Shown here: one piece after another, positions 7,134 to 23,492 of the stretch | Layout: each line of letters opens with the position of its first letter | How positions within the stretch are numbered: the first letter of the stretch is position 1 | Assembly: GCA_019359355.1 (NCBI GenBank) | Contig: JAHHHM010000004.1 | Coordinates: 62,001-126,000 of the forward strand | DNA from: Microcoleus vaginatus WJT46-NPBG5 | Lineage (GTDB): Bacteria > Cyanobacteriota > Cyanobacteriia > Cyanobacteriales > Oscillatoriaceae | Direction of reading: 5' to 3' | DNA: 64,000 bases | Position numbers and translations under genes: made by a program | Notes under the pieces: generated by a model | The model's database searches: none | Told to the model about the DNA's origin: nothing | The model's input: the letters and a program-made list of their open reading frames with translations, nothing else

Positions 7134-7319
7134 TTAACGTTGAGTGATTTCAGTTCAACGGACAACTAACTTTAAAGTTGGCAAGAAGAATTACTCAGCA
7201 TTTTCTAGCTACTAAAGGAAAGGCTGTCATTCTCACACGAGCCGGTTTTGCTAATAGCGAAATGGGAAAAATAATTGGCAGCCTTAGCAAAGTTTTATTA
7301 GCGGTCAATAATAACAAGT

Positions 7320-8723
7320 ATGAAAGCCATTCAAATCCTGATCTTCAGCAGTCCCTTGCTGACTGCAATTCTGGCTGTATCTTTAATTATCTTAATTGCT
7401 TTATTATTTCATTCTTCCAGTTATAAGAAAATTTCTTACTATTACCAAAGAGGATTTGCAATTTTATTTTTATTCCTGTCGCCGGCTTTAGAGGGAAGAC
7501 CTCCATTAAATTACTTGCACCCGACCAAGCTGGCCGAGACGAACAAAACAAATATGCATTACCTCTGGATTCCTTTTATGGTCTTCTGCTTCCTTATTTT
7601 ATTTCCTAGGATTAGTCATTTTTTTAAATATTCAATTAGTATTTTTTCCTTACTTTTATCAAAAAATCCATGTTTTTGGATTTACGCAACCCTGCCATTT
7701 TTCTCAATGTTTTGGTCAGAAACTCCTGAGATCGCCTTTGACCACTTTTTAGGCTATATATTAATCACGCCGGTTGCGATTTACTTGGCTGTGCAATATG
7801 ATTGGCAAGACCTAGCCAGGTTTATGCGTTGGAGCCATATCATGCTAGGCATAGGTAGTTACATCCACCAACGACCCGGTAGTGTAGTTGATTGGTCGGG
7901 TTTAACAAAATCCAAAAATAAACTCGGTGGCATTATGTGTTTATCCACAGCCTTTTGGTTCGTCAATTATTCCCAGGCTGTACAGAGCAAGGCAGGCCGC
8001 TGGTTGTCTCTTTTGATGACTTTAGTTTCATTTTATTTAATGAGAACCGGCAAATCAGGCGGAGCGCTTGTTGCCGTAATATTATTAATTGGAATGGTAC
8101 TATCGCTTAATTTTATTAAACGTTTAAGTTTTCAATGGGCATTTGCTTGTATTGCCACCTTTATTATTATTAGTATTGCCTCAACTCTTGTAATTACAGA
8201 TAACTTAGAAGCCATCGTAGTTGAGGGTTTAGGAAAAGATATGACCTTAACCGGGCGTACAGAATTTTGGCCACAAATCTTCGCGCGGGTTGTTGAAAAA
8301 CGCCTCTTATTTGGGTTTGGGTACTACAGTTTTTGGCAACCTGAGCGGGGAATTAACAATCCCGCAAAAGGAATCTTTACCACAACCGGCTTTATTCCCC
8401 CCCACTCCCATAATGGTTATTTAGAGATTTTAGTTTATTTTGGCTTGTTTGGATTAATCTTATTTGCGGTTTCTTTCGTGATTAATCTTGTCATGGCAGT
8501 TCAGTATTTAATGAAAGAAAGACTAGAGCTTTCAGCCATACCCATGATATTTTTGATGTACTTAACCTTAAATAATATCACAGAAACCACAATCATTGAA
8601 CCAACAAACGTTTGGGTTTATTATGTAATGCTAACAGTACGCTTAAGCATAGACACATCGTTCTTCAACAACACAACAATAGCTCCAAAACCCAAACGAC
8701 AAACGCCATCCTTCTCAGCCTAA
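7320..8723 (+). CDS. O-antigen ligase / Wzy-like polysaccharide polymerase
   Basis: Integral membrane protein of 467 aa with roughly 10-12 hydrophobic helices. A longer loop after mid-protein contains GRTEFWPQIF, and later HSHNGYLEILVYFGLFG; both match the O-antigen ligase/Wzy_C family. Members join or polymerise lipid-linked oligosaccharides on the outer face of the inner membrane. The context between an SLBB exporter and a GH2-like protein favours a role as exopolysaccharide polymerase. The sequence is richer in AT than its neighbours, as is common for such polymerases. Ligase and polymerase activity cannot be distinguished from sequence. Confidence 0.87.
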   Translation: MKAIQILIFSSPLLTAILAVSLIILIALLFHSSSYKKISYYYQRGFAILFLFLSPALEGRPPLNYLHPTKLAETNKTNMHYLWIPFMVFCFLILFPRISHFFKYSISIFSLLLSKNPCFWIYATLPFFSMFWSETPEIAFDHFLGYILITPVAIYLAVQYDWQDLARFMRWSHIMLGIGSYIHQRPGSVVDWSGLTKSKNKLGGIMCLSTAFWFVNYSQAVQSKAGRWLSLLMTLVSFYLMRTGKSGGALVAVILLIGMVLSLNFIKRLSFQWAFACIATFIIISIASTLVITDNLEAIVVEGLGKDMTLTGRTEFWPQIFARVVEKRLLFGFGYYSFWQPERGINNPAKGIFTTTGFIPPHSHNGYLEILVYFGLFGLILFAVSFVINLVMAVQYLMKERLELSAIPMIFLMYLTLNNITETTIIEPTNVWVYYVMLTVRLSIDTSFFNNTTIAPKPKRQTPSFSA

Positions 8724-8862
8724 AACCAACGCAGCTTACCCCCAAAACCTATAACTTTAACAGAACCCTGATACCAACCCTGAACCCATCTGTTTTTATC
8801 TGTGGTTAAAAAAAATCCAAAAATCTAAACTTTCCTAAAAAACCAGCCAACCTCCCAAATTC

Positions 8863-11800
8863 GTGACAAAAAAAATAACCAAAGTTATCGGAATATTTTT
8901 ACTGACAATATTTATTTTTGCAGGAATTGGTAGCCAAATTCACAAAGGCAATTCAGCCAATTGTCCTGTCTTGCAACTTGCTAAAAATACAGCCGGCGAA
9001 TCCCTTAAAATCCCCAACAGTAAACGAGACGAAATTTATCTCAACGGCATTTGGAAATTTATCCCTGCACTCGGTGGATCGCAGCAATTGCCCCCACAAA
9101 CCGGCTGGGGTTCCATCTGGGTTCCGGGAGATTGGCAGCGCGAAAACCACCCCTCAGTACCTGGAATCATTTCACGAGGAACCGGCACCGCATGGCAAAA
9201 CTTCAACGGCAAACAACTCTCAAAAGCCTGGTATCAAAGCACCATCAGCATCCCCGCCGAATGGCAAGGACGAACGATCCTGCTTGATCTCACACGCCTC
9301 AGTACCGATGCCGAAGTGTATGTGAACGGCATCCAGTGCGGCCAAATTCAGTGGCCCTACGGCGCAGCAGATATCACCACAGCCGTTAAACCAGGCAGCA
9401 GTGCAGTTTTAAGTCTATTAGTAACAGCAGCCGCCGATGAAAAAGAAAAAGCCGTAATTATGGGGCCAAATGAAATTTATAAAACCGAAAGCACGCTAGA
9501 ATCACGGGGATTAATTGGCGAAGTGCGATTACTTAGCCGGCCTGCAAAATCCTATATTAGCGACGTATTTGTACAACCGTCTACGCGAAACAATCAAATT
9601 AAATTAGATGTAGAACTTACCGATATTAAAGAAGCCGGCAAAACTGAAATTATCGCCCAAATGCTCAATGAAAAAGGCAAGATTGAGCGAGAATTCACCG
9701 GCAGCACAAACGTCACCGCCAAACCCACCCAAACTGTACAAATCGCCTGGGACTGGCCCCATCCGCGACTGTGGGACATTGGCCGGCCCAACCTTTATAC
9801 CCTGCGGCTGCAAGTGCGAGGCAGTGGCATTGAGGATGAATATCATCAAGAATTTGGCTTCCGCGAATTTTGGATAGAAAGGCGAAAATTTTACTTAAAC
9901 GGCACAGAATTGCGCCTGCGACCGATTCTTTATAGCGAAGAATGGGCCAACGGCATCCCTGAAGTTGGGAACCGAATCATCGACAGCTACCTGTGGGCCG
10001 GCTTTAATATCGCTGAACTGTGGCCTTGGAACCACAATGAACGCGGCAAATCGCACTTTCGAGAACTTTTTGCCGGCCTTGCTGACCAAAAAGGGTTTCC
10101 CCTAATCGGGCCGGCATTAGATATGACAAACCTTGCCTGGTCTGGTAGATGGAAAAACCCAGAGAATAGGGAACGCTGGGAACAGCAAATGCTCACAGAA
10201 TTGCGCCGGTATCGCAACCATCCCTCAATTTTATTGTGGGGAAGTAATTCTAATTTTTTCGGCTATAACGATGATCAAAACCCGCGTCGCATTGGCAAAA
10301 AAAAGGTAGAAGGAACCCTCGGAAAAGATGCTGACAAGCGTTTCCAGGAAATTTCTCCGGTCGGCGAAGCAGTGGTGGCAACGATTAAAAAACACGATCC
10401 CACCCGTCCCGTCCTGGTTCACCAAGGGGCCGCCGTTGGCGATGTTTATGCCTTAAACTGCTACTTAAATATGATTCCCCTGCAAGAACGGGAAGAGTGG
10501 CTTTCGCAGTGGACGCAGCAGGGAGATATGCCTTATATGGCGGTGGAATTTGGCACACCACTGCACACAACCATGATGCGAGGTCGCAAGGGTTTTGGTA
10601 ATGCAATTCTCAGTGAACCCCTGATGACTGAGTTCAGTGCGATTTACTTGGGTAAAGAGGCTTACGAGTTAGAAACTCCCGCTTATCGAGCAAAGATTCG
10701 GGAGTTATTTGTGGGGGATGGCGAGTATAAAAGCTGGCATTTTAACCCGCAACTTGATTTCGCGCCGGCATTCCAAAAGTTGCAGCAGTTATTCATTACA
10801 AATACCTGGCGCAGTTGGCGCACCTTTGGCATCACGGGTGGGATGATTCCTTGGAACAATGGCCACGGCTGGCAGGTTTCAGAGGGCGGCAAACAAACGG
10901 TGGATCTTGGCCCTTTTAAACCAGGCCGGCGTGGCCCTTACTTGCAGCAGGTGCCAAAGTCTTTATGGCACGCTTTCCAGATGGAAGCGAATACGATCCA
11001 CCCAGCCGGCATTGCGCTATTAGAAAACAATGGCCCAACCTTGGCTTGGATTGCCGGTTCTGAGCCCGCTTTTACGGCAAAAGACCATAGTTTTAAGGTA
11101 GGAGAAACCTTGCAAAAGCAAGTGGTATTGATTAACGATCTCAGGGAAAAGCAAACGTTTTCCTTTGAGTGGCAGGTGACGGTTAAGGGGCAAAAGGTGG
11201 GGACTGGCCAAAATCAGGGTAATATCGAGCCGACACAAACGCTATTTTTTCCCCTAGCAGTCGATTTGCCAAAAACCTTGGCGGCAGAAAAAGTGGAGGG
11301 AGAAATTCGCCTCAGTGCTCGGATTGGCAGCCGGCAGCATCAAGACCGTTTTAGCTTCCGGGTTTTCAGTTCGTCTTTAGCCACCGGCAAAGGAGAAATT
11401 GCGGTATTCGATCCTGCCGGCCAAACCACTGCAATGCTGCAACAGATGGGTTACACCGTTAAGCCGTGGGCCGGTTCTGACACTCCCCAGCTTTTGGTAA
11501 TCGGTCGTGAAGCATTATCCAGTGAGGAGAAGCGGCCAGGAAACTTAGAAGCCTTTGTCCGCAAGGGTGGCAGAGCAATTATTTTTACTCAAAACTCCGA
11601 ATGGTTGCAGCGTATAGGACTGCGCGTTTCGCCCCATCTCAGCCGGCGCGTCTTCCCGGTTGATGAAACGCATCCGGTGGTGGCGGGATTGGATGCACTG
11701 GATCTGCGGGACTGGCGGGGTGAAAGTTCCTTAGTAGAAGCTTATCCTGACACCAGGCAAGGCGGCATGAGGCTGAGTCCTAGCGGTTTGCCGTGGTATG

Positions 11801-12687
11801 GTTGGCACTGGGGAAATCGGGGTGCAGTCAGTTCTGTGCCGGTGGAAAAGCCGCATCATAGTTCTTGGCGACCGATTTTAGAGTCAGAATTTGATCTGGC
11901 TTACACACCGCTGATGGAACTTGATTATGGCAAAGGCCGGCTGATTTGGAATGGTTTAGACCTGGAAGATCATTATGCTGTGGAAGTGCCGGCGGCAAAA
12001 CTTGCTCAGCAAATGATCGAATACGCCCAGACAGCGCCGCTGTCTCCCAAGGCAAATAAGGTGATTTTAATCGGCAGCGAGGCAGATGCCGGTAAACTAG
12101 ATGCGCTCGGTGCCATTTACCGACAAGCCGATTCACTAGAAACTAACCCGGATTTAGTGATTATCGGTTCAGAGGCAAAGGTTAAAGATGAGGATTTGCA
12201 GGCATATTTGAATGCCGGTGGTAAGGTGTTTTTCTTGCCGGCAGCCAAACCCGCTACAACTTTGGGGGTGCAAGTGCAGGAGGTAAAAAACTTCGGCGGT
12301 TCCCTTGCAGTTCCCAATTGGCCAGAAGTTCGCGGCATCAGCGCTTCTGATTTGCGCTGGCGTTCTTTTCACGACGCTTGGTTAATCCAATCTGGTGGTG
12401 AAGTGGCAGCAGATGGTTTATTAAGTCGCGTGGTTTCTGGGAAAGGGGTGGCGATTTTCTCGCAAATCGACCCTGACGCCTTGGAAGCAGATACAAATAC
12501 CTATTTTCGTTACAGCCGGTGGCGGCAAACGCGGGCAATTTCCCAAATCCTCGCTAATATGGGCGCAAGTTTTAAAGCTGACAGGCAAATTTTCAAGCCG
12601 GTGAATAACCCGAATCGCTTCTATCACCCTGATTATCAAACAGATTTTGAGCAAGGCGATGATCCCTATCGCTATTACCGTTGGTAA
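8863..12687 (+). CDS. Large glycoside hydrolase family 2-like exported protein
   Basis: 1274 aa with a GTG start and an N-terminal hydrophobic export segment (IGIFLLTIFIFAGIGSQI, about 9-26). The N-terminal half has GH2 architecture: a sugar-binding jelly roll (from YLNGIWKFIPA through LLDLTRLSTDAEVYVNG), an immunoglobulin-like domain, then a TIM barrel. The usual barrel signature ending in Asn-Glu appears near residue 460 as NHPSILLWGSNS, so the acid/base glutamate is replaced by serine. A glutamate is retained in PYMAVEFGTP, the region of the usual nucleophile. The C-terminal half has class I amidotransferase-like segments (AVFDPAGQTTAML, FVRKGGRAIIF) resembling those appended to some beta-galactosidase families. 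Position after the export and polymerase genes suggests trimming or binding of the exopolysaccharide. The substrate is unknown and the enzyme may be altered or inactive. Confidence 0.82.
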   Translation: MTKKITKVIGIFLLTIFIFAGIGSQIHKGNSANCPVLQLAKNTAGESLKIPNSKRDEIYLNGIWKFIPALGGSQQLPPQTGWGSIWVPGDWQRENHPSVPGIISRGTGTAWQNFNGKQLSKAWYQSTISIPAEWQGRTILLDLTRLSTDAEVYVNGIQCGQIQWPYGAADITTAVKPGSSAVLSLLVTAAADEKEKAVIMGPNEIYKTESTLESRGLIGEVRLLSRPAKSYISDVFVQPSTRNNQIKLDVELTDIKEAGKTEIIAQMLNEKGKIEREFTGSTNVTAKPTQTVQIAWDWPHPRLWDIGRPNLYTLRLQVRGSGIEDEYHQEFGFREFWIERRKFYLNGTELRLRPILYSEEWANGIPEVGNRIIDSYLWAGFNIAELWPWNHNERGKSHFRELFAGLADQKGFPLIGPALDMTNLAWSGRWKNPENRERWEQQMLTELRRYRNHPSILLWGSNSNFFGYNDDQNPRRIGKKKVEGTLGKDADKRFQEISPVGEAVVATIKKHDPTRPVLVHQGAAVGDVYALNCYLNMIPLQEREEWLSQWTQQGDMPYMAVEFGTPLHTTMMRGRKGFGNAILSEPLMTEFSAIYLGKEAYELETPAYRAKIRELFVGDGEYKSWHFNPQLDFAPAFQKLQQLFITNTWRSWRTFGITGGMIPWNNGHGWQVSEGGKQTVDLGPFKPGRRGPYLQQVPKSLWHAFQMEANTIHPAGIALLENNGPTLAWIAGSEPAFTAKDHSFKVGETLQKQVVLINDLREKQTFSFEWQVTVKGQKVGTGQNQGNIEPTQTLFFPLAVDLPKTLAAEKVEGEIRLSARIGSRQHQDRFSFRVFSSSLATGKGEIAVFDPAGQTTAMLQQMGYTVKPWAGSDTPQLLVIGREALSSEEKRPGNLEAFVRKGGRAIIFTQNSEWLQRIGLRVSPHLSRRVFPVDETHPVVAGLDALDLRDWRGESSLVEAYPDTRQGGMRLSPSGLPWYGWHWGNRGAVSSVPVEKPHHSSWRPILESEFDLAYTPLMELDYGKGRLIWNGLDLEDHYAVEVPAAKLAQQMIEYAQTAPLSPKANKVILIGSEADAGKLDALGAIYRQADSLETNPDLVIIGSEAKVKDEDLQAYLNAGGKVFFLPAAKPATTLGVQVQEVKNFGGSLAVPNWPEVRGISASDLRWRSFHDAWLIQSGGEVAADGLLSRVVSGKGVAIFSQIDPDALEADTNTYFRYSRWRQTRAISQILANMGASFKADRQIFKPVNNPNRFYHPDYQTDFEQGDDPYRYYRW

Positions 12688-13041: not shown

Positions 13042-13878
13042 GTGAAACTATCAGAACAAACAATATCGGCTCTTGCCTCGGTTATTACTGGTGATGGAGG
13101 AAGATCGCCATATCGAACTGGTCCACAATTAGTTTCGTTCTTCAACCAATTTGGTTCAGAGGACACTTATGAGAGCGGTTTTCCTTCTCGTTGGTATTAT
13201 GCAGAAGAGAAAGTGCGCGAATTTAATGACACGTCAACCATGAAAGATATTCTGGTTGCGGCTCTCGATCCTCGCCACTTTCTAGCTCAAGAACTCAACA
13301 TTAATGTTGCAGTCGAACATCTAAACCAGTTTCTTGAGTTTGATAATTACGAATTGCGACCTTCAGGAAAGAGGTGGGATGTTTACAAATTAAGCGGCTC
13401 TTCAATCGAGTTATTGCATCCTTATGAAAATTCAGTTGAACTAACACATATCTTTATTGATGAACAAATAAAGAAGTGTGACAAGAAGCTTGGTGAAGGA
13501 GATTTTGATGGTGCAATTACCAATGCACGCTCTCTTGTCGAAGCAGTTTTGTCAGCGATTGAGAAAGAATTTGATCCTAATCCACCTGAATATGACGGCA
13601 ACCTGCCGAAGCTGTACAAGAGGGTTCAAAAGCACTTAAACCTCTCCCCAGGACAGGAGAGGCTTGCAGAATGTCTGAGGCAAATCCTATCCGGATTAAC
13701 AAGCATAGTTTCTGGCTTGGCTACTTTACGCAATACGATGAGTGATTCTCATGTTATTTCATATAAACCACTAGAACATCATGCAAAATTAGCAGTTAAT
13801 TGTGCTAAGACTCTCTGTGATTTTCTATTTGAAACAAAGGAGTATCAAATGCAGAAAAAGAAGAATAACGCCCCCTAA
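13042..13878 (+). CDS. Abortive infection family protein (Abi C-terminal domain)
   Basis: 278 aa with a GTG start. The N-terminal part (LVSFFNQFGSEDTYESGFPSR) and the C-terminal part match what I know of abortive-infection family proteins with the Abi C-terminal domain. That domain shows here as AITNARSLVEAVLSAIEKEF, then LPKLYKRVQKHLNL, GLTSIVSGLATLRN and a late helix ending LCDFLFET. Some members abort phage infection, but the family is broad and mostly untested. The gene stands alone in its orientation, next to a DUF4258/DUF2283 pair. It has none of the GCCGG words that fill the surrounding genes, which points to recent acquisition. Antiphage activity is an inference. Confidence 0.75.
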   Translation: MKLSEQTISALASVITGDGGRSPYRTGPQLVSFFNQFGSEDTYESGFPSRWYYAEEKVREFNDTSTMKDILVAALDPRHFLAQELNINVAVEHLNQFLEFDNYELRPSGKRWDVYKLSGSSIELLHPYENSVELTHIFIDEQIKKCDKKLGEGDFDGAITNARSLVEAVLSAIEKEFDPNPPEYDGNLPKLYKRVQKHLNLSPGQERLAECLRQILSGLTSIVSGLATLRNTMSDSHVISYKPLEHHAKLAVNCAKTLCDFLFETKEYQMQKKKNNAP

Positions 13879-13954
13879 CAATCGCGCTGCACCGGAACGT
13901 TTCAAGCATACCAGGGAGAGCGATGTTTGCAGAGGTAGCGATTGCTTTCCCTAC

Positions 13955-14173
13955 TTAAGCTACAGTAAAAGATACATTTTCTAGCACTACATTAGGGATA
14001 CTTCCAGCACCTAAAACCTCTTTAGCATCTAAAATTTCTATCCCTATTAATAACTCATTTTCACCAATATTTAAAGCAATTTCGTCAGTTAATTGTAAAG
14101 TGCGACACTGATGTTTACCTTCTACAAGTCTAATGTAGAGAGCATCAACTTCTGAATCATAACTAATCTTCAT
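13955..14173 (-). CDS. DUF2283 domain-containing protein
   Basis: 72 aa. The sequence starts MKISYDSEVDALYIRL and continues with IALNIGENELLIGIEILDA, the two-part signature of the DUF2283 family of short beta-rich proteins. It lies 11 bp downstream of a DUF4258 gene on the same strand, an arrangement frequent in cyanobacteria and suggestive of a toxin-antitoxin-like pair, with DUF2283 the likely antitoxin or partner. No biochemical role has been established to my knowledge. Start and stop are unambiguous. Confidence 0.85.
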   Translation of the reverse strand: MKISYDSEVDALYIRLVEGKHQCRTLQLTDEIALNIGENELLIGIEILDAKEVLGAGSIPNVVLENVSFTVA

Positions 14174-14184
14174 AAACTTTGACC

Positions 14185-14439
14185 TCAGAAATAAAAAGTA
14201 TAAACCGTGATAACGACTAACTCAGTATCAGTCTCGGCAACAATTGGTACTACTTTCTTGAGAGAGTAGAGCTTACCCTGCCAATCTTTATTATACTGAA
14301 AAGTAGCTTGATATTTGTACCTACCATTTTTAGCAGTTTGTCGATTACCTGTAATAATAGTATCAACAATTTCTACTTCATTTGTACCTCTTTCAATCGC
14401 TTGCTCTTGGGCATGATTAGTTAATCTAATGGGTTTCAC
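14185..14439 (-). CDS. DUF4258 domain-containing protein
   Basis: 84 aa. The motifs LTNHAQEQAIERGTNEVEI and the C-terminal strand block LVVITVYTFYF fit DUF4258, a small family with a RelE/BECR-like look that often accompanies DUF2283. The conserved HAxxRxxERG-type helix appears as HAQEQAIERG. It is the first gene of a two-gene unit with DUF2283 (11-bp gap). A toxin role for the pair is an inference from gene arrangement and size. The pair sits within the stretch lacking GCCGG words. Confidence 0.83.
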   Translation of the reverse strand: MKPIRLTNHAQEQAIERGTNEVEIVDTIITGNRQTAKNGRYKYQATFQYNKDWQGKLYSLKKVVPIVAETDTELVVITVYTFYF

Positions 14440-14838
14440 TTTTGCTTATCCATATTCAGTATTAGGAGTCGGCGAATCATAAACCGGCTAGAAACCAGTT
14501 TTTTTCAATCGTATTGATTAAAAAACGGAAGATTTGTACAGAACATCAAATATATATTGGTAGCCAACGCAATTGAATGATTCAGAATAAATTCATTCAT
14601 GTCTACCTCTACCAGTATCCTGAAAACCCATATAGGTGTACCAAGTAGGGGAAGGAGGACGCTTTTTCTGAGCATACCTTCACCAGAGATGCTTGCACAG
14701 GCCGGCTGGGCAATATCTGACTTCCACAAGTGTGGTTTATCCGCATTAACCGGCACCCCTTCACCTCCAACCGCGACACTCGTCTAAATAATCGAGATTG
14801 CCGAATCATCTCAGTTAGTATTATCTAATAAGATGGGT
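14440..14838. other. Intergenic region without a recognisable gene
   Basis: About 400 bp between the DUF4258 gene and a LuxR remnant. Overlapping short frames on both strands (about 14505-14809) encode no motif I recognise. The GCCGG word reappears here, at 14483 and 14701, marking the edge of the stretch that lacks it. It may be debris from the same event that truncated the LuxR gene. Confidence 0.4.
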
Positions 14839-14982
14839 TTAGTTAACTAAACCAGCACGGAGGGCGCGGACAGCAGCAGAAGTGCGATCATCACAAGATA
14901 GCTTAGTCAAAATATTACGCACATGAGTTTTCACTGTACCGAGGGAAATATGTAGTTCTCCGTTCTTCCACTCCAACCTCAT
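14839..14982 (-). pseudogene. Remnant of a NarL/LuxR-family response regulator (HTH end only)
   Basis: Reading the minus strand from about 14964 to the stop at 14839 gives ELHISLGTVKTHVRNILTKL followed by SCDDRTSAAVRALRAGLVN. This is the second half of a LuxR-type helix-turn-helix and its normal C-terminal end. The receiver domain and the first HTH helices are missing. Upstream codons read RLEWKN instead of the expected SNQEIA-like segment, and the 2Fe-2S gene begins at 15023 on the other strand. The fragment keeps an open frame, but 40-odd residues cannot form a functional regulator. It is most simply a 5'-truncated relic left by a rearrangement. Confidence 0.8.
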
Positions 14983-15022
14983 TCCTCAAAACTCCCCTCT
15001 CCCACTTAAAACTCAAACCAAC

Positions 15023-15505
15023 ATGGTCAAAACGATTCGCTTAGATCCCCTTGCCTACGAAGCCGCAGTTCAAACCAATACCAACATCCTCTCAGCATTG
15101 CTAGCGCACGAACTGAACGTGCTGAAAGAATGTGGAGGGCGGGGGATGTGTGCCACCTGCCATGTTTTCATTAAACAGGGGATGGACAGTCTCTCTCCCA
15201 TGAACCGGCGGGAACAACGAACCCTAGAAATTATTACCAGATCTCAAACAAATTCTCGCCTTGCCTGTCAGGCACGAGTCATGGATGAAGGGGTAGTTGT
15301 GGAAGTCCCCACAGGGATGTACATCAACGCCATTCAAGATGTTAACGCCCTCATTGGTCGCCGCGCCGAACAAAATTTGCTCCACCCGATTACCGGCCAG
15401 GTTGTTGTGGAAGCCGGCAAGTTAATTACTCGTTCTATCATTACCCAACTCGAAGAAACTCGCTTCCAAGTTGGGGAGTATCTCGTTCACACGCGAGATG
15501 CTTAA
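15023..15505 (+). CDS. 2Fe-2S ferredoxin-domain protein of the PAP-like cluster
   Basis: 160 aa. Residues about 1-95 form a 2Fe-2S ferredoxin fold with cluster ligands Cys37, Cys43, Cys46 (CGGRGMCATC) and Cys82 (RLACQA). The Cys-x5-Cys-x2-Cys spacing is adrenodoxin-like rather than the Cys-x4 spacing of plant-type PetF. The last 60 residues are a separate tail (GQVVVEAGKLITRSIITQLE) with no family I can name. It is likely a soluble electron carrier. It is followed after 81 bp by a phycobilisome-like gene. The same neighbours occur in the Synechocystis slr0144-slr0152 cluster implicated in photosystem II assembly, where Slr0148 is the probable counterpart (inferred from memory of that cluster). 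Confidence 0.87.
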   Translation: MVKTIRLDPLAYEAAVQTNTNILSALLAHELNVLKECGGRGMCATCHVFIKQGMDSLSPMNRREQRTLEIITRSQTNSRLACQARVMDEGVVVEVPTGMYINAIQDVNALIGRRAEQNLLHPITGQVVVEAGKLITRSIITQLEETRFQVGEYLVHTRDA

Positions 15506-15524
15506 AAACGGCTACTATCCCTGG

Positions 15525-15554
15525 GATTTTAGATTTTAATTTTTATCTAAAATC
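15525..15554. repeat. GATTTTAGAT inverted repeat
   Basis: Perfect 10-bp arms GATTTTAGAT and ATCTAAAATC with a 10-nt AT-rich loop, between the 2Fe-2S gene and the phycobilisome-like gene. The same word recurs near 28181, 42091, 44358 and 60404. It could act as an attenuator between the two genes. Confidence 0.6.
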
Positions 15555-15586
15555 GTTCAATTATGTAGTGTTGCAGGAAGTAATTT

Positions 15587-16051
15587 ATGTTAAGCAAACT
15601 GACCCGCTTGAGTGTGACAGTGGATGGTCGTTATGCTACGGCTGCGGAATTGCAGTTTTTGAAAGATTATTTTAAGACATTTAATTTGCGCTTAAAAGCT
15701 TACAAAAAAATTCAAGCGGCTGAAGCAGAAATTCTTCGGAAAGTGGAAGCAAAAGTTCTGTCAATTGACCCAAATTTATTTCGCAGCGGTTCCGAGGATG
15801 CGACGGCTAAATGGCGACTCGACACGCTTCGGGTTTTGCGATACACCTCTGCTGCTTTGTTAACTAATGATGTCGAGCGGCTGCGGAACGGCTTTATCCT
15901 TTGGTTCCACACGATTCTGCGGGCGCTGGAGGCTGAGCGCAGTGCGAATATTACTTATCAAGTGATGCTTGATGTGATTAAGCAGTATTTAACGCCTGCA
16001 GAAGCGGCGATTTTTTCTCCGATTTGGGAATTGCACCGGCTTAAAAAATAA
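15587..16051 (+). CDS. Phycobilisome-family protein without bilin cysteine
   Basis: 154 aa of globin-like, almost wholly helical phycobiliprotein fold. It has an N-terminal segment (LSVTVDGRYATAAELQFLKDYF), a central TLRVLRYTSAALLTNDVERL corresponding to the phycobiliprotein RxxTYA region, and a C-terminal LDVIKQYLTPAEAAIF. The protein has no cysteine at all, so it cannot attach a bilin covalently. It is probably the second gene of a unit with the upstream 2Fe-2S protein. By order it matches Slr0149 of the Synechocystis PAP cluster, where such proteins are thought to help photosystem II assembly rather than harvest light. That functional statement is by analogy. Confidence 0.82.
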   Translation: MLSKLTRLSVTVDGRYATAAELQFLKDYFKTFNLRLKAYKKIQAAEAEILRKVEAKVLSIDPNLFRSGSEDATAKWRLDTLRVLRYTSAALLTNDVERLRNGFILWFHTILRALEAERSANITYQVMLDVIKQYLTPAEAAIFSPIWELHRLKK

Positions 16052-16150
16052 TCTTGCCAAGCCCAATACATTTATTTTATGTTGTTAGCTCTGAAGCTCA
16101 TCTTCAAAGATTATTAATACTTTGCAAAGATTATTTTTTAACCGCAGATT

Positions 16151-16202
16151 CCGCAGGTGAAACTGGAATGCGCTACGCTCCTCATTCAAGTTCCACCTGC
16201 GG
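16151..16202. repeat. Imperfect inverted repeat (dispersed element)
   Basis: Arms of 20 bp at 16151-16170 and 16183-16202 (outer part CCGCAGGTG/CACCTGCGG) pair with two mismatches around a 12-nt loop. The preceding ACCGCAGATTCCGCAGG resembles the 'CCGCAGAT' tandem words common in cyanobacterial spacers. It lies just before the strong palindrome at 16228 and may be a miniature mobile repeat. Confidence 0.5.
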
Positions 16203-16227
16203 ACGCAGCTAAATTCAGAGGAACATG

Positions 16228-16270
16228 ATTTTACTGAGATTAACTGGCACTTAGTTAATCTCAGTAAAAT
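16228..16270. terminator. Perfect 18-bp-stem bidirectional terminator
   Basis: The arms ATTTTACTGAGATTAACT and AGTTAATCTCAGTAAAAT are exact reverse complements separated by the 7-nt loop GGCACTT. T-rich sequence (ATTTTTGTTTT) follows on the plus side. The site lies between the convergent genes ending at 16051 (plus) and 16297 (minus), so it can stop transcription from both arms of the PAP-like cluster. Confidence 0.85.
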
Positions 16271-16296
16271 ATTTTTGTTTTAATAAATTGCCCTTT

Positions 16297-16953
16297 TCAG
16301 TCGCACAAAATAGCCAGGATCTTGTCATGGTTTTGTCCTTCTGCCACCCAAGATTCTGCCGGCTTTAGGCGTTCTGTTAAGCCAATAATAAATCGGTTGG
16401 TTTCTGCACCCATTGACTCGCACGTTGTTTGCAGGGAGTAAATGTCTCGACCTGTAAGCTGGCTGAAGAATGCACTTAAGATGCCGGCTTCTAAAAAACA
16501 CACGGGATGATTGGTTTTAGGTGCGCTTTCCGCAAAAGGAGAGTTGCTAATTCTCACTTCTAAAAATCCCTGCTGATAATAGGTTTGGTCAAATTCAAAC
16601 GTTCCCCAACCAAGGGTTTTCCAACACTGTTGAAAACATTGGAGAAATTCAACCATTTCCATTTCAGCTAAAGGCTTGCCGTAGTATTCACTCACTTCTT
16701 CACAAAAACGGACGTAGAAATTTTTGCCCCACCAGCGACCACAATTGAACAGTACCAAGCGTGCAGCTTGGCCAGTTTCTTGGTCTAGACCTTGGTAAAT
16801 TGCTTTTATTAAAGTATCTGGCAAAGCTAGGAAACGATCGCCCCGACGATTTTCTAACAAACCCAGCTCGAGATCGCCTCGAATATAGGTAGCGGGGGCA
16901 AAGTAATTTCCAGGGAGGCGTTTGGACTCAAGTAAATCAGAGATCGCAATCAT
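16297..16953 (-). CDS. V4R-domain protein (PAP-like cluster, Slr0147-type)
   Basis: 218 aa. The C-terminal half is a V4R (4-vinyl reductase, BchJ-like) domain: FFSQLTGRDIYSLQTTCESM followed by GAETNRFIIG. The usual Cys-x5-7-Cys metal pair is reduced to one cysteine here, since the second position is Asn. The N-terminal half begins MIAISDLLESKRLPGNYFAP and carries a WGKNFYVRFCEEVSEYYG helix region. V4R domains bind small hydrophobic or tetrapyrrole-like ligands in other proteins. In the Synechocystis PAP cluster two V4R proteins flank a phycobilisome-like gene, the same set seen here. The last gene of the minus-strand arm, it ends at the 16228 terminator. Confidence 0.8.
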   Translation of the reverse strand: MIAISDLLESKRLPGNYFAPATYIRGDLELGLLENRRGDRFLALPDTLIKAIYQGLDQETGQAARLVLFNCGRWWGKNFYVRFCEEVSEYYGKPLAEMEMVEFLQCFQQCWKTLGWGTFEFDQTYYQQGFLEVRISNSPFAESAPKTNHPVCFLEAGILSAFFSQLTGRDIYSLQTTCESMGAETNRFIIGLTERLKPAESWVAEGQNHDKILAILCD

Positions 16954-17032
16954 GTTAATAATTAATTATTAGCTAGAATTTTCAATTTTTTCAAAATTCA
17001 AAATCGTAAGTTCTGAATTTTTCAGGGCGAGT

Positions 17033-17503
17033 TCAAGACTGCGTCACCTCTAAAAGGGTGGTCTGAGCTTGGGTTAAATACGGCTCCAACAGGGCTAGCG
17101 CCTGGGGTGATAGCAATCCCTTTAAACGCACTTGCAGCAGATGGTAGAGCTTTGTTTCAACGGCAACCATCTGATGGGTTTGCACTAAACCTTTCAGCCA
17201 CTCAAGCAGATTTTGTTGTAAAAAATCTCGGTCATTCAAAAGCATTGCCATCGCGCAATGACGCAAGATTAGCAACCAATTCTTTAAGGAGCGCTCTAAG
17301 AGTTCTTGGTTGGTATCGGGAAATGCTTTAATCAGTTGATCGGCAACGGGTTGGAAAATTGCGACTTCTTGCTCTCGCAGGAGTTCATAAGTTTTTAAAC
17401 TTTGAGCTAGGGAAATCGCGTAATGCTTAAAAGCGTCAAGTTCTTCTGTTTTCAAGTACCGGCTTTCTGCCTGATCGAGTAAGACTTCAATCTTTGGATT
17501 CAT
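17033..17503 (-). CDS. Phycobilisome-family protein, probably bilin-less (Slr0146-type)
   Basis: 156 aa and all-helical, with phycobiliprotein-like landmarks: N-terminal AESRYLKTEELDAFKHYA, central LRHCAMAMLLNDRDFL and terminal LKGLLSPQALALLEPY. The only cysteine is in LRHCAMA, which aligns with the RY[VI]TYA stretch of allophycocyanin rather than with the chromophore cysteine, so covalent bilin attachment is unlikely. It is a paralogue in architecture of 15587-16051. It lies 79 bp upstream of the V4R gene at 16297 and downstream of two more minus-strand genes, forming a four-gene arm. The assembly-factor role is by analogy with the PAP genes of Synechocystis. Confidence 0.78.
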   Translation of the reverse strand: MNPKIEVLLDQAESRYLKTEELDAFKHYAISLAQSLKTYELLREQEVAIFQPVADQLIKAFPDTNQELLERSLKNWLLILRHCAMAMLLNDRDFLQQNLLEWLKGLVQTHQMVAVETKLYHLLQVRLKGLLSPQALALLEPYLTQAQTTLLEVTQS

Positions 17504-17608
17504 CGGTTTACACTGATTGGGGAAGGTTTAAAAAAGATGAAGGATGAAGGGAAAACTTGGTGGGTTTATAAAAACTTCTTCCGTTTTCCTTTTGGTTACA
17601 AATGTTCG

Positions 17609-17959
17609 TTAAAACAAATCCACGAGATCCGCTAATGTGGTTTCTGCCGGCTCGGAAGGTGCGCTCACCGGCACGCTAGCAGATGGCTTTGGCAGCGAAC
17701 CAACTGCCGGCTTTCCTTCCCAAGGTAATGCCCGGAAAAATTCTGCCACCGGCACGGTTAAAGGCAGGGGCTGGCCATCTTGCTGCGCGTCTTGAAACGC
17801 TAGGGGTTGACCTTGCCAATTACAATTGCTAAAAAATTCTTGAACCGACTGTTGCAACCAATCAGAATGAACGGTAAAAAATGAAGCCTCAGCCGGAGAA
17901 TCTTTGGGTTGTTTTTTTTTGCCCGTCGCCTTTCCTTGCCCAGAAGTTTTAGCGGTCAT
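17609..17959 (-). CDS. Short protein with duplicated FFxxxxWxGxP motif
   Basis: 116 aa with a Lys-rich, probably disordered N-terminus. Two copies of the motif V-x-EFF-x4-W-x-G-x-P follow: VQEFFSNCNWQGQP and VAEFFRALPWEGKP. It ends in an acidic leucine-rich peptide, TLADLVDLF. No enzyme domain is visible, and it looks like an adaptor with short binding motifs. The start overlaps the stop of the upstream V4R gene by 4 bp (ATGA), so the two are translationally coupled. By position it corresponds to Slr0145 of the Synechocystis PAP cluster; that match is inferred from order, not alignment. Confidence 0.72.
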   Translation of the reverse strand: MTAKTSGQGKATGKKKQPKDSPAEASFFTVHSDWLQQSVQEFFSNCNWQGQPLAFQDAQQDGQPLPLTVPVAEFFRALPWEGKPAVGSLPKPSASVPVSAPSEPAETTLADLVDLF

Positions 17960-18687
17960 TTCAGTCTCTCTCCATCCAGCAAACGCTTCTGAATATCGCG
18001 GGCGGTGGCTCCTTCATTGAGCCAGAAAGATGCGGCATCAATTCGGTCTTTATTCCCTAGCAGAAACTTACAGTAGGTTTCTCCCATTGAATAACACTGA
18101 ATTTCAATGCAGTTCAGAGATTTTTTGACCAAACTGCTGAAGAAACCGGCAAATAGGCCGGCATAAAGATAGCAAACGGGTTTACCAACATCTCCTAATG
18201 TGCGAGCCACCGCTGAATCAAAAAGATTGATAAAGATAAATCCCTGCTTGCGATCACTCATGTCTACCTCCCACCGGCCCCATCCCTGAGCGGTGAAAGG
18301 CCACCACCAAGTTTCTAACAAAAACATTAAATTAGAACTGTGAATATCCCGTTCAAATTCTTTTTCAAACCACTCTCGAAAAACGACGGCATCCTTGGTT
18401 CCCCATTCGCAACCAATGGTGTACATGATGACGCCAGAAGCGTTGCCCACTTCTTCTTCTAAACCTTCTTGCAGGCCGATAATAAAGTCTTCACTGGTGA
18501 AAATATTTCGGCTGTCATTCCAGTCGGTAATAATGCCAGATTTGGGCTGCATCTGAAAAAAATCCTGAAACCCATAATGGTTATGTTTTTTAGGATACTT
18601 GCCTTTCTGGGAGTGTTTTTGGCCAGATGTCTGGGGCGCGGATGAGGCGGGGGTGAGCGCAAACTCCCTGTTAGTGGGGGTGGCCAT
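17956..18687 (-). CDS. V4R-domain protein (PAP-like cluster, Slr0144-type)
   Basis: 243 aa. It opens with a low-complexity, basic N-terminus (about 1-38), followed by a conserved HNHYGFQDFFQMQPKSGII block. A C-terminal V4R domain follows with KPVCYLYAGLFAGFFSSL, then IQCYSMGETYCKFLLG. Both cysteines of the V4R metal or ligand pair (Cys-x6-Cys) are kept here, unlike the second V4R protein at 16297. First gene of the minus-strand arm; its promoter should lie in 18688-19044. Slr0144 of Synechocystis, implicated in photosystem II assembly, is the likely counterpart. Ligand unknown; a tetrapyrrole is plausible. Confidence 0.82.
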   Translation of the reverse strand: MATPTNREFALTPASSAPQTSGQKHSQKGKYPKKHNHYGFQDFFQMQPKSGIITDWNDSRNIFTSEDFIIGLQEGLEEEVGNASGVIMYTIGCEWGTKDAVVFREWFEKEFERDIHSSNLMFLLETWWWPFTAQGWGRWEVDMSDRKQGFIFINLFDSAVARTLGDVGKPVCYLYAGLFAGFFSSLVKKSLNCIEIQCYSMGETYCKFLLGNKDRIDAASFWLNEGATARDIQKRLLDGERLK

Positions 18688-19044
18688 GTATGGACTCCTT
18701 GTTCGGTAACGGTTCCAGTGGGTTGAGCGTTAAATTGGGTGGCCGGAAAAGTGACTGCTCCAACTTCAGTTTATTCTCCCACAATGTCTTGTACAAGGCA
18801 GACTTGGGAAGGAGCGAAGCGTCGCACAGCCAGCATTTTTTTTGGGTAACTCGCTGCCGGCACTAAGCGGGTGAGCAGTTATACCGACACCTTGCTCCAG
18901 TCGAGACATTGCCGGCAACATCTCTAGACTAACTAATTAATAAGTTGCCGGTTAACTATGCAAAATTTAAGTTTTTTGACGGTAACTGATACCCTATCTG
19001 TGCTATGTTTTGGGCACGCAATCTAGTACGGATTTCAAGCATCT
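18688..19044. other. Divergent promoter region
   Basis: 357 bp separating the V4R gene (minus) from the pseudo-caspase gene (plus). No small gene or strong hairpin is visible. It must hold promoters in both directions. The stretch TGATACCCTATCTGTGCTAT near 18988 lies just before the plus-strand gene, but I cannot assign a promoter with confidence. Confidence 0.4.
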
Positions 19045-20892
19045 GTGGTGAAAAATCAGGCTTGCATCGCAATTGGTATTAACCAATATCAGTTCTTCCA
19101 GCCTTTAAGCTACGCCCAGCAGGATGCACAGGCGTTAGGAAATTTCTTGGTGGATGAAGCTCGCTTGCCGGCAGAGCGGTGTGTATTGCTCACAGACACT
19201 TCACCACCGGCATCTGATCACTCAACCTATCCGAGTAAAGAAAATATTCTGGCATGGCTGGATCGGCAGTGTCGGGAGCAAGTGCAGCCGGGTGATTTAT
19301 TGTGGTGCTTTTTCAGTGGCTATGGGATGAGCTGGGAAGGTCAAGATTTCTTGATGCCAGCAGAAGGCGACCCCACGGATATCCCGGCTACCGGCATCCC
19401 CATGCGAGAGCTGTTCGCCACGCTGAAGGCAGCGCCGGCAGACATGGTCGTGGTTTTGCTAGATATGAACCGCGCTTCTAGTATGCGAAGCCATGATGCG
19501 ATTGGAACCGAGACGGTGGAATTGGCCAAACGCTTGGAAATTCCAACCCTGCTTTCTTGCCGGCCTGGTCAGTTTTCCCGCGAAGTGAGTGCACTGCATC
19601 ACGGCTTGTTTACCGCAGCGCTTCTAGAAGGTTTGCGCTACAACCGCTGCATCGATCTCGATAGTTTGGAACGCTATCTCAACCACCGCTTGCCAGAGTT
19701 AAGCGAACACCACTGGCTGCCGGTGCAAGAACCGCTGATGGTGGTCAACCCGCGTGAAAAAATCCACCAGGTGATTTGGCCGCAAAATGACGCTGTGACC
19801 GCCAGTAAGGCAGTCGCAAGCCAGTTTTCATCTTCCAGTGAACCCCACCTCGGCAATGGCTTTGTGACGCCTTCGGTGGAGTATTCCCCACTCAACGGTA
19901 ATGGGTTTAATGGGAGTCGTCGCGAACCGGGTAATTTGGCTCTGCCGTCGGATGCTCCCTTAAAATCTGCTGGTGCGGGTTCGCAGATGGGGAAACCCGC
20001 CGCTGAGCCGGCTGATGCTGCACCTGTACTCTCGGGCAATGCCTCGGAAACTCCCAAATCTCAAGAGTCGGTGTCTTCCCAAAAGTGGGTGCTGTGGGGA
20101 GGCGCGGCGGCGTTGGTGTTGCTGTTGGGTGTGGCGGTGAGCCGGGTAACAACTGTGAACCAATCAGCACCGGAGACTAGCTCAATGGTCGCCGGCACTG
20201 ATGAAATAAGCCAGCCGGCAGCCGTACCAAAAGAGGCTACTACCGCTGCTCAGACGCCACAGGCAGCAGCGCCAACCCCTCAGCCGGTGCGGAGTCAAAC
20301 GCTTCTCGACAAAGCCATATTGACCATTCAGCCGGTTCAAGCCACGCATTTTAGTTCGGCGATCACCACTGCCGGTCAGATACCCCCCAATGATCCGCTC
20401 TACGCCGAAGCGCAGCAGAATATTGAGCGCTGGGGTGGGGTGATTTTGGATATTGCCATCGGACGCGCTAAACAGGGAAACTTTCAGGGAGCGATCTCAG
20501 CGGCTAAGCTGGTACCGAAAGAGCGGCCAGAATTAAACGCTCAAGCGCAAAAACTGATCGCTCAATGGCAACAGCTATTTAAAGTGCAGCAGGCGAATCA
20601 GAAATTGCTGAATAAGGCAGTCGGCTCGATCCGTCGGGGACAGCTTGATTCTTATACCTTGGCAATTGCGACTGCCGGTCAAATTCCTGCCGGCCAACCG
20701 AAATACGCAGAAGCTCAGAAATTAATCGCGCAGTGGAGTGCAGCGATGTTTAATGAAATTGCCCTATATCGAGCAGCACGCGGTCAATTCAGCGCGGCGA
20801 TAGAAGCGGCCAATTTAGTGCCGGCTTCTACCCCAACTTATGCGAAAGCTCAGAAAGCAATTGCCCAGTGGAAACCAAAAGTAAAGCGATAA
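19045..20892 (+). CDS. Pseudo-caspase (inactive peptidase C14-like) with TM helix and C-terminal repeats
   Basis: 615 aa with a GTG start. Residues 1-235 form a caspase/orthocaspase p20-like domain (ACIAIGINQYQFFQPLSYA). The histidine of SGHG is replaced by Tyr93 (FFSGYG) and the cysteine of DxC by Asn142 (LLDMNRAS), so the catalytic dyad is absent. A low-complexity linker leads to one transmembrane helix at about 347-368. Beyond it are repeats built around A-x-TAGQIP-x3-P-x-YAEAQ-x2-I-x-W, at about 430-615. The domain would be cytoplasmic if the tail is exported. Catalytically dead caspase homologues are known in cyanobacteria. It is divergent from the PAP-like arm; its repeat region may correspond to the TPR-like Slr0151 of that cluster, which is an inference to test. 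Confidence 0.85.
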   Translation: MVKNQACIAIGINQYQFFQPLSYAQQDAQALGNFLVDEARLPAERCVLLTDTSPPASDHSTYPSKENILAWLDRQCREQVQPGDLLWCFFSGYGMSWEGQDFLMPAEGDPTDIPATGIPMRELFATLKAAPADMVVVLLDMNRASSMRSHDAIGTETVELAKRLEIPTLLSCRPGQFSREVSALHHGLFTAALLEGLRYNRCIDLDSLERYLNHRLPELSEHHWLPVQEPLMVVNPREKIHQVIWPQNDAVTASKAVASQFSSSSEPHLGNGFVTPSVEYSPLNGNGFNGSRREPGNLALPSDAPLKSAGAGSQMGKPAAEPADAAPVLSGNASETPKSQESVSSQKWVLWGGAAALVLLLGVAVSRVTTVNQSAPETSSMVAGTDEISQPAAVPKEATTAAQTPQAAAPTPQPVRSQTLLDKAILTIQPVQATHFSSAITTAGQIPPNDPLYAEAQQNIERWGGVILDIAIGRAKQGNFQGAISAAKLVPKERPELNAQAQKLIAQWQQLFKVQQANQKLLNKAVGSIRRGQLDSYTLAIATAGQIPAGQPKYAEAQKLIAQWSAAMFNEIALYRAARGQFSAAIEAANLVPASTPTYAKAQKAIAQWKPKVKR

Positions 20893-20969: not shown

Positions 20970-23492
20970 TTATTTGAGGGGAATTTCAATCCAAAATTCT
21001 GTTCCCCCGTTGGGTTGGGAAACGCATTTAAAATTCCCGCCGTGTTTTTCTACAACAATTTGATAGCTAATTGCTAAGCCAATTCCCGTGCCTTTACCGA
21101 CTGCTTTTGTGGTAAAGAAAGGATCGAACACTTGGTGCTGTAATTCCTCCGGAACACCAGGGCCATTGTCGGCAATTCGGATTGCAACAAATTGGGAATT
21201 GAGCTTTGACAATTCTTTTTCCTCGCTCCCCTTTCTTGGCTCTGCAGTTAGTAGAGAAGTGGTAATTGTAATTTGACTGGGATTGGCTCGAATCTGCGCC
21301 ATTGAGCGATGTTTATCATACTCTTCTAAGGCATCAATTGCATTGGCTAAAACATTCATAAATACTTGGTTTAACTGGCCGGCATAACACTCTATTAGCG
21401 GCAGTTCGCCATATTCTTTAATGATCTGAATGTTAGGCCGGTCTGGTTTAGGTTTGAGCCGGTTGCTCAAAATTAGCAGCGTACTATCTAACCCATCGTG
21501 AATATTCACCGGCTTCATTTCGGCTTCATCAACGCGGGAAAATGTTCGCAATGACTGCACAATCGAGCGGATGCGCTCAGCTCCCACTTTCATTGATTTT
21601 AACAGTTTTGGCAGGTCTTCAATCACAAACTTTAAATCCCTACGCTCAGCTTCCTCCTGAATTTCAGGCACCGCTTGGGGATAGTGTTTTGTGTAAAGAT
21701 TTAAAAGCTCAACCAAGTCTTGGGTGTAGTTATCTGCATGGGTCAGATTTCCGTAGATGAAGTTAACCGGGTTATTAATTTCGTGCGCCACACAGGCAAC
21801 CAGTTGGCCGAGAGAAGACATTTTTTCGGTTTGAACCAGTTGAGTTTGAGTGCGTTTCAGTTCATCTAAAGTAATTTCTAATTGATTGGCTTTTTCTCGC
21901 TCTCTTGATTCTGATTCTTGCAAAGCTTCATTTAATTTTGCCAATTCATCGGCTTTTCGCAGCACAATTTTAATCATGCCGTTTCTAAGTTCAAGTGCCG
22001 CCTCTCGTTCACACTTTTTCCACGGTAAAGATTTGAATTTTACCGTTTCTTTCCACAGCTTAAACGATCCTCTAGGCGAGAGGCGCAAGGTTCCATCATC
22101 TGCCACTTCAACGGCTTTATGGGGATTGCCGGCCCAATTTACAGTTTGAATTTCTTCCGGCCTAAACCAGAGGACGTAATTATGTTGAGTCTGGGAAATA
22201 GAAATCGCCAGTAACCCACTGGCTGTGTCTTTAAACGCTTCTGCTTCTGGATAAACGGTTGCTAACGAATCTGTATAAATAATTTCTTCAGTAAAATTTT
22301 TTGTCAGCCAAGTGAGCAAGCGATTGAGATCCTCTGCTGCCGGCGTTTCACCAATGAGCCGGCATTCACCCCCCAAACATACAGCAGCGCCTTGAGCGCT
22401 CACTAAGTCCAGCAAGTTTGGAGATTCTTCGTTACACAATCCCTCAACAAACTTACTTTCAAGCGACATCCTCTCAATTAGCTTAGCAGTGATCGATTTT
22501 AAGGCAATTTTATAATCGTAATCTTCATTTTCTTCCTTGGTGGATAAATCTAAAGACATCACTTGTCCTAGAAACTCACACGCTTTCCGCACCTCATAGC
22601 CAACGTACTTGGGTGATTGATGGTGACACGCAATCAGTCCCCATAGTTTCTGCCCTTTCATTAAGGATATAGACATGGAAGCGCTAACGCCCATGTTGTG
22701 CAAATACTCTATATGAATGGGCGAAACACTTCTAAGAACAGAAAAGCTTAAATCAAGTGATTTTTTAGTTAGCGGATTAATTTTGGGAGTAATTTCAGCC
22801 GGCAGATAATTGACATTGGCAATTAATCTTAGCCAGTTGGAACAATACAGAAGTCTAGCCTGTTTGGGAATATCAGAGGCGGGGTAGTGCAACCCTAAAA
22901 AAGGCGGCAAACTCTCTTGTTTCTCTTCAGCAATGATTTTTCCGTTCCCTTCTTCATCGAATTTATAGACCATCACTCGGTCAAATCCGCTAATTTCTCG
23001 CACTTCTCTAACAATGATTTGGCACAAGTTATGCAAGTTTGACGCGCCTTGAATTTTAGTTGAGGAGTCTCTGACCAAATTATAAAAACTAAAAAAACTA
23101 TTTTCGGGTTGAGAGGAAATTGGCTCCAATTCAAGAATTACACAACCATCTGCCCGATGAGCGATCCCATCAAAATGCTGAGTTTTATAGGGAAGAATGA
23201 CGGATACTCTAAAGGGATTGACCGTCTTTAATTCAGGCTGAGATAAGATTCTTTTTAAATCTTTGACTTGAGAGTTACCCAATAAAAAGCTTAAATTTTG
23301 ATTAATTAATTGCTGACTGGGAACGTTGAAAACTTGTAAAGTATTATTGCTAACTTGTAAAATTTCCAAATTGGGTTCTTGCAAGACAAAAAGAACCCCG
23401 TGAGGCTGAATCGCTCCAGGAATTTGAATGGGTTCTCTATCACAATTCGTTAAATCAACTTTTTGTGAGGTTTCAAGTTGGCGGCTACTCAT
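20970..23492 (-). CDS. Bacteriophytochrome-type sensor histidine kinase
   Basis: 840 aa, soluble, in the order PAS (about 15-125), GAF (140-310), PHY (320-505), coiled coil, HisKA and HATPase. The bilin cysteine is in the N-terminal extension (Cys17 in LTNCDREPIQIPG), the biliverdin-type site of bacteriophytochromes. The GAF position that holds Cys in Cph1 is Ile (LRSVSPIHIEYL). GAF keeps the PASDIP motif; PHY keeps the tongue motif PRGSF. The kinase has phospho-His near 568 (HEINNP), the N-box NVLANAIDAL and the G-boxes DNGPGVP and GKGTGIGLAI. This predicts a biliverdin-binding red/far-red photoreceptor autokinase (CphB/BphP class). No receiver domain is fused or adjacent. Its kinase half is very similar to that of the gene at 24372. 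Confidence 0.93.
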   Translation of the reverse strand: MSSRQLETSQKVDLTNCDREPIQIPGAIQPHGVLFVLQEPNLEILQVSNNTLQVFNVPSQQLINQNLSFLLGNSQVKDLKRILSQPELKTVNPFRVSVILPYKTQHFDGIAHRADGCVILELEPISSQPENSFFSFYNLVRDSSTKIQGASNLHNLCQIIVREVREISGFDRVMVYKFDEEGNGKIIAEEKQESLPPFLGLHYPASDIPKQARLLYCSNWLRLIANVNYLPAEITPKINPLTKKSLDLSFSVLRSVSPIHIEYLHNMGVSASMSISLMKGQKLWGLIACHHQSPKYVGYEVRKACEFLGQVMSLDLSTKEENEDYDYKIALKSITAKLIERMSLESKFVEGLCNEESPNLLDLVSAQGAAVCLGGECRLIGETPAAEDLNRLLTWLTKNFTEEIIYTDSLATVYPEAEAFKDTASGLLAISISQTQHNYVLWFRPEEIQTVNWAGNPHKAVEVADDGTLRLSPRGSFKLWKETVKFKSLPWKKCEREAALELRNGMIKIVLRKADELAKLNEALQESESREREKANQLEITLDELKRTQTQLVQTEKMSSLGQLVACVAHEINNPVNFIYGNLTHADNYTQDLVELLNLYTKHYPQAVPEIQEEAERRDLKFVIEDLPKLLKSMKVGAERIRSIVQSLRTFSRVDEAEMKPVNIHDGLDSTLLILSNRLKPKPDRPNIQIIKEYGELPLIECYAGQLNQVFMNVLANAIDALEEYDKHRSMAQIRANPSQITITTSLLTAEPRKGSEEKELSKLNSQFVAIRIADNGPGVPEELQHQVFDPFFTTKAVGKGTGIGLAISYQIVVEKHGGNFKCVSQPNGGTEFWIEIPLK

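Follow-up and report, generated by a model that had tools for sequence, protein, structure and literature searches.

In Synechocystis, the products of slr0144–slr0149 interact with one another and are located at the thylakoid (PMC9880817), and the operon, known as pap, is upregulated when lumenal proteins of photosystem II (PSII) are lost (PMC4853703). The gene set is already recognised as a photosystem-assembly cluster, and the role of its proteins and of V4R domains is an open question (PMC13326532). A survey of clusters that combine iron–sulphur (Fe-S), V4R and globin proteins found them to be variable, and set slr0150–slr0152 aside as showing no evidence of conservation (Rockwell et al. 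2023, PMC10151467). The present text concerns the corresponding locus of Microcoleus vaginatus WJT46-NPBG5, contained in a stretch of 64,000 nucleotides (contig JAHHHM010000004.1, positions 62,001 to 126,000), referred to here as the window. Six genes at 15023–18687 are, by their sequences, real relatives of slr0144–slr0149. We consider it likely that they form a functional unit, in an arrangement typical of the Oscillatoria–Planktothrix–Microcoleus branch that arose as an inherited rearrangement. What is added to earlier knowledge is a seventh gene, for a protein kinase, which is found only in genomes carrying the V4R and ferredoxin set.

Gene content and orthology

The cluster consists of a rightward doublet, F148–P149, and a leftward quartet, V144–S145–P146–V147, which converge at a hairpin (Table 1). 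Open reading frames and Pfam matches bear out the six gene types, their strands and their boundaries as given in a first-pass annotation of the window, with five of the six proteins assigned to a Pfam family and S145 returning none. To assess orthology, the proteins of the window were compared with two loci from a Synechocystis-type genus. The identity of this genus is suggested by the same-strand Fer2, TPR and Pkinase genes downstream of one of its clusters, an order that we take to be the slr0150–slr0152 tail, and five of its genomes carry both V4R genes. Reciprocal best matches were obtained for V144 (61–62% identity), F148 (63–65%, with 64.6% over 161 residues at one locus), V147 (53–56%), P146 (40–44%) and P149 (39–43%), and for S145 at one of the two loci (E 3e-6, weak). 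The proposed correspondence to slr0144–slr0149 thus stands, weakly so for S145, and neither of the refuting conditions set for it (best matches to other families, or an identical convergent order in Synechocystis) overturned it. Read gene by gene, both reference loci have all their cluster genes in one direction, as had been said of Synechocystis, and the convergent order was not met there.

F148 matches Fer2 (Pfam, 5.9e-9), its closest NCBIfam model is fdx_isc, and all four cysteines are invariant in an alignment of 17 relatives. The leftward arm begins with V144, which has 4 bp in common with S145; relatives of V144 share 52–99% identity across the phylum, and cysteines 172, 198 and 206 of the protein are invariant in the alignment. 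Amongst proteins of solved structure, the V4R profile matches the V4R domains of phenol regulators weakly, and hence no ligand is deduced, and the globin profile matches allophycocyanin and phycocyanin chains. S145 contains two copies of a V-x2-FF-x4-W-x-G motif, which is present at least twice in 65 of 120 relatives and is possibly a short docking motif.

The two globins had been described as bilin-less. This is appropriate for P149 of the window with respect to covalent binding at the usual site, where Trp occupies the position equivalent to Cys84, but it does not extend to the family, since the aligned position is Cys in 40 of 85 P149 relatives (Trp in 43, with one Thr and one gap) and about half of the relatives hold this Cys in a CRRD context, as in phycobiliproteins. 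P146 has Ser at this position, in a less certain alignment. The Cys/Trp pattern comes from database sequences. Both states occur within the convergent clade.

The SpkG-like kinase and co-occurrence of the parts

The locus is larger than the six genes first reported. A SpkG-like Ser/Thr kinase, absent from that account, is the best match in the genome to SpkG of the Synechocystis type (301 bits, against 91 for the runner-up). In 25 of the 30 loci scored as convergent, the kinase stands head-to-head with F148 at a distance of about 0.1–0.6 kb between open reading frame ends. The gap is about 13 kb in G001 and G002, as in the window, and about 0.2 kb in G004, from a neighbouring genus of the same family.

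A sample of 244 genomes was taken evenly over the phylum, some of the assemblies being fragmented, and kinase scoring covered the five best candidates in each genome. The counts are 43 genomes with V4R relatives, 42 with F148 and 36 with the SpkG-like kinase, and the sets are nested: all 42 genomes with F148 have V4R genes, and all 36 with the kinase have both. The corresponding Fisher probabilities, which ignore relatedness, are 1e-46 and 2e-36. Genus g60 includes one genome with all three parts and two with none. Four genomes hold the parts unlinked (G067, G168, G208 and G250); distances of more than 1.5 Mb separate the quartet, F148 and P149 from one another in G067, and in G168 a kinase–F148–P149 block lies 1.7 Mb from the quartet. 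Co-occurrence therefore holds with the doublet megabases away, which argues for a single functional unit that does not depend on layout. Moreover, G168 and G043 retain the head-to-head kinase–F148 pair at a site away from the quartet.

Evidence of conservation, which the published survey did not have (PMC10151467), is thus supplied for the slr0152 kinase, though not for Slr0151. In Synechocystis, phosphorylation of Fd5 (Slr0148) is lost in an spkG mutant (PMC11863333). We regard it as plausible, with slightly less than even confidence, that the kinase belongs to the Fe-S/V4R/globin cluster as a dedicated seventh member. The whole would then be a phospho-regulated redox/tetrapyrrole module with kinase and ferredoxin as its regulatory pair, and the inverted doublet would provide the two with a shared divergent control region across the clade. 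Many Ser and Thr residues of F148 are conserved among relatives, which has no bearing on which sites are phosphorylated.

A third globin of the phycobilisome family adjoins the kinase (G000:C33:61556-62011, minus strand), overlapping bases 1–11 of the window. Oscillatoria PCC 10802 and further members of the family retain, close to the kinase, a relative of this globin that has Cys in an RCxYDM context.

Layouts of the cluster and their evolution

Relatives of V144 were gathered from 80 named genome contigs and some 60 further genome regions, and gene order was read with profiles of the six families, leaving 125 distinct loci after removal of duplicates. The stable backbone is the V4R quartet (slr0144–slr0147), usually followed by the SpkG-like kinase, and in 23 loci the two stand together with no doublet. 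The mobile part is the doublet, which lies upstream of the quartet, forward between quartet and kinase, inverted in that same place, or unlinked. The upstream position characterises the Leptolyngbya types (18 loci with doublet, quartet and kinase), the forward in-between position the Synechocystis types (11 loci, and 13 more with no kinase nearby) and the inverted position the window type (25 loci, plus the window and two congeners with the kinase about 13 kb off). The convergent layout is shared by about 30 distinct loci from Oscillatoria (including PCC 10802), Planktothrix, Arthrospira (including PCC 9108), Microcoleus and Tychonema. The idea of a local split of a Synechocystis-like operon is not upheld, as the convergent order is clade-wide and the Synechocystis order is not demonstrated to be ancestral.

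In a tree of concatenated cluster proteins, for which 200 bootstrap trees were sampled, a sister relationship between convergent and Synechocystis-type clades was recovered in 199, and layout follows the tree closely, with 5 changes against a mean of 41 when shuffled. The doublet lies upstream of the quartet in the outgroups and in most Leptolyngbya types, and this order is the one found at the root; unordered parsimony permits any of the three orders as ancestral. On the simplest reading, the doublet would have reached the slot between V147 and the kinase once and then been inverted in one of the two branches. The convergent order is a normal inherited arrangement of one large filamentous branch and probably not an adaptation particular to this genome.

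Two other histories were rejected. Inversion-ordered parsimony would make the convergent order an intermediate towards the Synechocystis order, reached by in-place inversion of the quartet, but the strand of the quartet–kinase backbone is constant across nearly all loci, and it is therefore the doublet that moves. Rooting on L183 would make the Synechocystis order ancestral, but L183 is a long branch and the result vanishes with the deeper outgroups L184, L176 and L177.

Two Leptolyngbya-type loci (L085 and L160) have F148 or P149 on the opposite strand beyond the kinase, an arrangement that is independent of, and unlike, the convergent layout. Diverged copies of the cluster, with one or two F148 genes, V144, P149 and V147 and no S145, were seen in L159, L182, L185, L186 and L188, with up to several per genome.

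The convergent junction

The perfect 18-bp hairpin that had been noticed between the two arms is present and folds better than every dinucleotide-preserving shuffle (z = -7.0 on the plus strand, -6.0 on the minus strand). Within the 64-kb window, just one other perfect stem reaches 13 bp with a loop of no more than 15. The stem is A+T-rich and is followed on the plus strand by a T-rich tail, ATTTTTGTTT, whilst no such tail was found on the minus-strand side. The combination of a stable stem and a T-rich tail, the pattern of a Rho-independent terminator, occurs on the plus strand only, and hence the hairpin probably terminates the F148–P149 arm. Two congeneric genomes have the same stem with mismatches. 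The perfect hairpin was considered as a conserved element and rejected, the stem being imperfect within the genus and no matching hairpin lying at the junction outside it; an Rfam search of 14400–19200 gave no match at the gathering score.

The junction also houses a copy of a dispersed repeat of about 90 bp that has 28 matches in the genome and is mostly missing from the junction of the same-genus genome G002. Planktothrix, Arthrospira and Microcoleus have a pentapeptide-repeat gene occupying the convergent junction.

Function and alternative explanations

By analogy with Synechocystis, the products may act jointly at the thylakoid as accessory factors in photosystem assembly or repair, and PSII assembly is the function that we would infer for the cluster of the window. 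The V4R pair and the globins would hold or sense a tetrapyrrole or a related hydrophobic ligand, the ISC-type ferredoxin would feed or drain electrons, and the kinase would set the state of the ferredoxin. The two arms are predicted to be separate transcripts, of which the rightward one would stop at the hairpin. This mechanism is proposed because of the work on Synechocystis and the descent from pre-PcyA clusters.

Several points weigh against this picture. The role in PSII assembly is debated even in Synechocystis, where the effects may stem from slr0150–slr0152 (PMC10151467), and direct proof of SpkG kinase activity is lacking there (PMC11863333). No kinase was found in seven V4R-bearing genomes amongst the five best candidates scored in each. 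Furthermore, a full-length Slr0151 ortholog was not found in the genome of the window or in five others tested; only the Synechocystis-type genome has one, and elsewhere the search gave matches to the TPR region alone (residues ~180–265). The best-studied part of the operon is therefore missing here.

It has been proposed, in the first-pass annotation, that a single Synechocystis-like operon was split so that the redox half and the V4R half could be controlled independently. The geometry does fit one in-place inversion of F148–P149 relative to the Synechocystis-type order, because the kinase keeps its place and strand, yet the order belongs to the whole clade, the outgroups have the doublet upstream, and three ancestral orders are allowed. 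Moreover, the V147–F148 gap in Synechocystis types is already the widest measured (median 134 nt, against 8 nt inside the quartet), so that separate promoters could exist there too, and this proposal is judged unlikely. Rather more room is left for neutral drift of module linkage, in which the convergent junction would have no regulatory meaning. At least four layouts and the unlinked cases speak for this, as do the elements that lie in the region: the pentapeptide-repeat gene in the Planktothrix and Microcoleus junction, the dispersed repeat in that of the window, and the exopolysaccharide cassette between kinase and F148. It is a real possibility, albeit one to which we give less than even weight, since the layout is strongly conserved within the clade and the kinase–F148 pair outlasts linkage to the quartet in two genomes.

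A different question is whether the present role is the handling or sensing of tetrapyrroles or bilins, as a relic of pre-PcyA clusters, instead of PSII assembly. The cyanobacterial Fe-S, V4R and globin proteins do derive from such clusters (PMC10151467), the chromophore Cys persists in about half of the P149 relatives, and some 2 kb past V144 there is a gene for a phytochrome-type histidine kinase, which is also retained close by in other members of the family. However, Trp replaces this Cys in the lineage of the window, the flanking genes scanned included neither a heme oxygenase nor a bilin reductase, and Synechocystis proteomics links the set to the photosystems (PMC4853703, PMC9880817), which makes a bilin role rather improbable. 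The preferred reading remains that of an inherited functional unit serving the photosystems.

Neighbouring genes

Table 1. Position of the cluster genes, the junction elements and the genes between kinase and ferredoxin in the window
Feature	Position	Strand	Description
SpkG-like Ser/Thr kinase	256–2133	-	Slr0152 ortholog; quartet strand; 12.9 kb from F148; Pkinase 1.7e-51
Exopolysaccharide cassette	2369–12687		Between kinase and F148; outside the cluster proper
Wzc-like tyrosine autokinase	2369–4660	-	Exopolysaccharide cassette
Poly_export	5673–7133	+	Exopolysaccharide cassette
Wzy_C ligase	7320–8723	+	Exopolysaccharide cassette
Family-2 glycosyl hydrolase	8863–12687	+	Exopolysaccharide cassette
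F148	15023–15505	+	160-residue [2Fe-2S] ferredoxin, ISC/bacterial type (CX5CX2C...C); Slr0148/Fd5 ortholog
P149	15587–16051	+	154-residue phycobiliprotein-like globin; Slr0149 ortholog; Phycobilisome 4.8e-17 (Pfam)
Dispersed ~90-bp repeat copy	16130–16222		In junction; inverted arms 16150–16170/16183–16203
Hairpin	16228–16270	+	18-nt arms perfectly complementary, 7-nt loop, then ATTTTTGTTTT on +
V147	16297–16953	-	218-residue V4R protein; Slr0147 ortholog; V4R 8.4e-17 (Pfam)
P146	17033–17503	-	156-residue phycobiliprotein-like globin; Slr0146 position; Phycobilisome 7e-10 (Pfam)
S145	17609–17959	-	116-residue protein; Slr0145 position; profile matches in most loci
V144	17956–18687	-	243-residue V4R protein; Slr0144 ortholog; V4R 2.5e-21 (Pfam)

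Divergent from V144 is a gene for a caspase-like protein (19045–20892, plus strand), which is conserved next to the cluster within the family and can also be recognised close to it in the Planktothrix and Microcoleus types. The phytochrome-type sensor histidine kinase (PAS_2-GAF-PHY-HisKA-HATPase; 20970–23492, minus strand) is found nearby in the family at 59–94% identity. On the other side, 60 bp upstream of F148, lies a 40-residue C-terminal remnant of a LuxR-type response regulator (14842–14961, minus strand), which was not found in the regions of two congeners and has a 76%-identical stretch within a 242-residue open frame elsewhere in the genome. Beside F148, positions 13042–14439 hold an Abi_C protein and a DUF2283/DUF4258 pair, defence- or toxin–antitoxin-like; comparison with the corresponding regions of nine relatives did not turn up the Abi_C gene.

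Comparison with known systems

That ferredoxin, V4R pair and kinase strictly occur together, whether linked or not, shows which parts need joint study, and sets the conserved SpkG apart from Slr0151, whose mutants have published PSII phenotypes and which is absent here. It also cautions that operon structure should not be read from Synechocystis alone. In comparison with the slr0144–slr0152 operon, the locus has orthologs of slr0144–slr0149 and slr0152, with the order kept inside the quartet and inside the doublet. However, the doublet is inverted so that the genes occupy two strands, the adjacent Fd4 (slr0150) and a full-length Slr0151 are lacking, the kinase of the window genus is 12.9 kb away, and there would be at least two transcription units in place of one.

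Unlike the light-harvesting phycobiliproteins, the globins P149 and P146 of the window lack the chromophore Cys. The locus resembles the clusters derived from pre-PcyA systems in having one Fe-S protein, two V4R proteins and two phycobiliprotein-related globins; the survey of these described variable clusters and saw no evidence that the slr0150–slr0152 partners are conserved (PMC10151467), whereas the kinase in the present analysis shows both conservation and strict co-occurrence. Finally, the association of kinase and ferredoxin genes recalls the SpkG–Fd5 pair of Synechocystis (Angeleri 2018, as cited in PMC11863333 and PMC7860145). The phosphorylation is known, from these sources, in Synechocystis alone, whilst in the convergent clade the two genes are mostly in direct head-to-head contact, and in the genus of the window they stand 12.9 kb apart.

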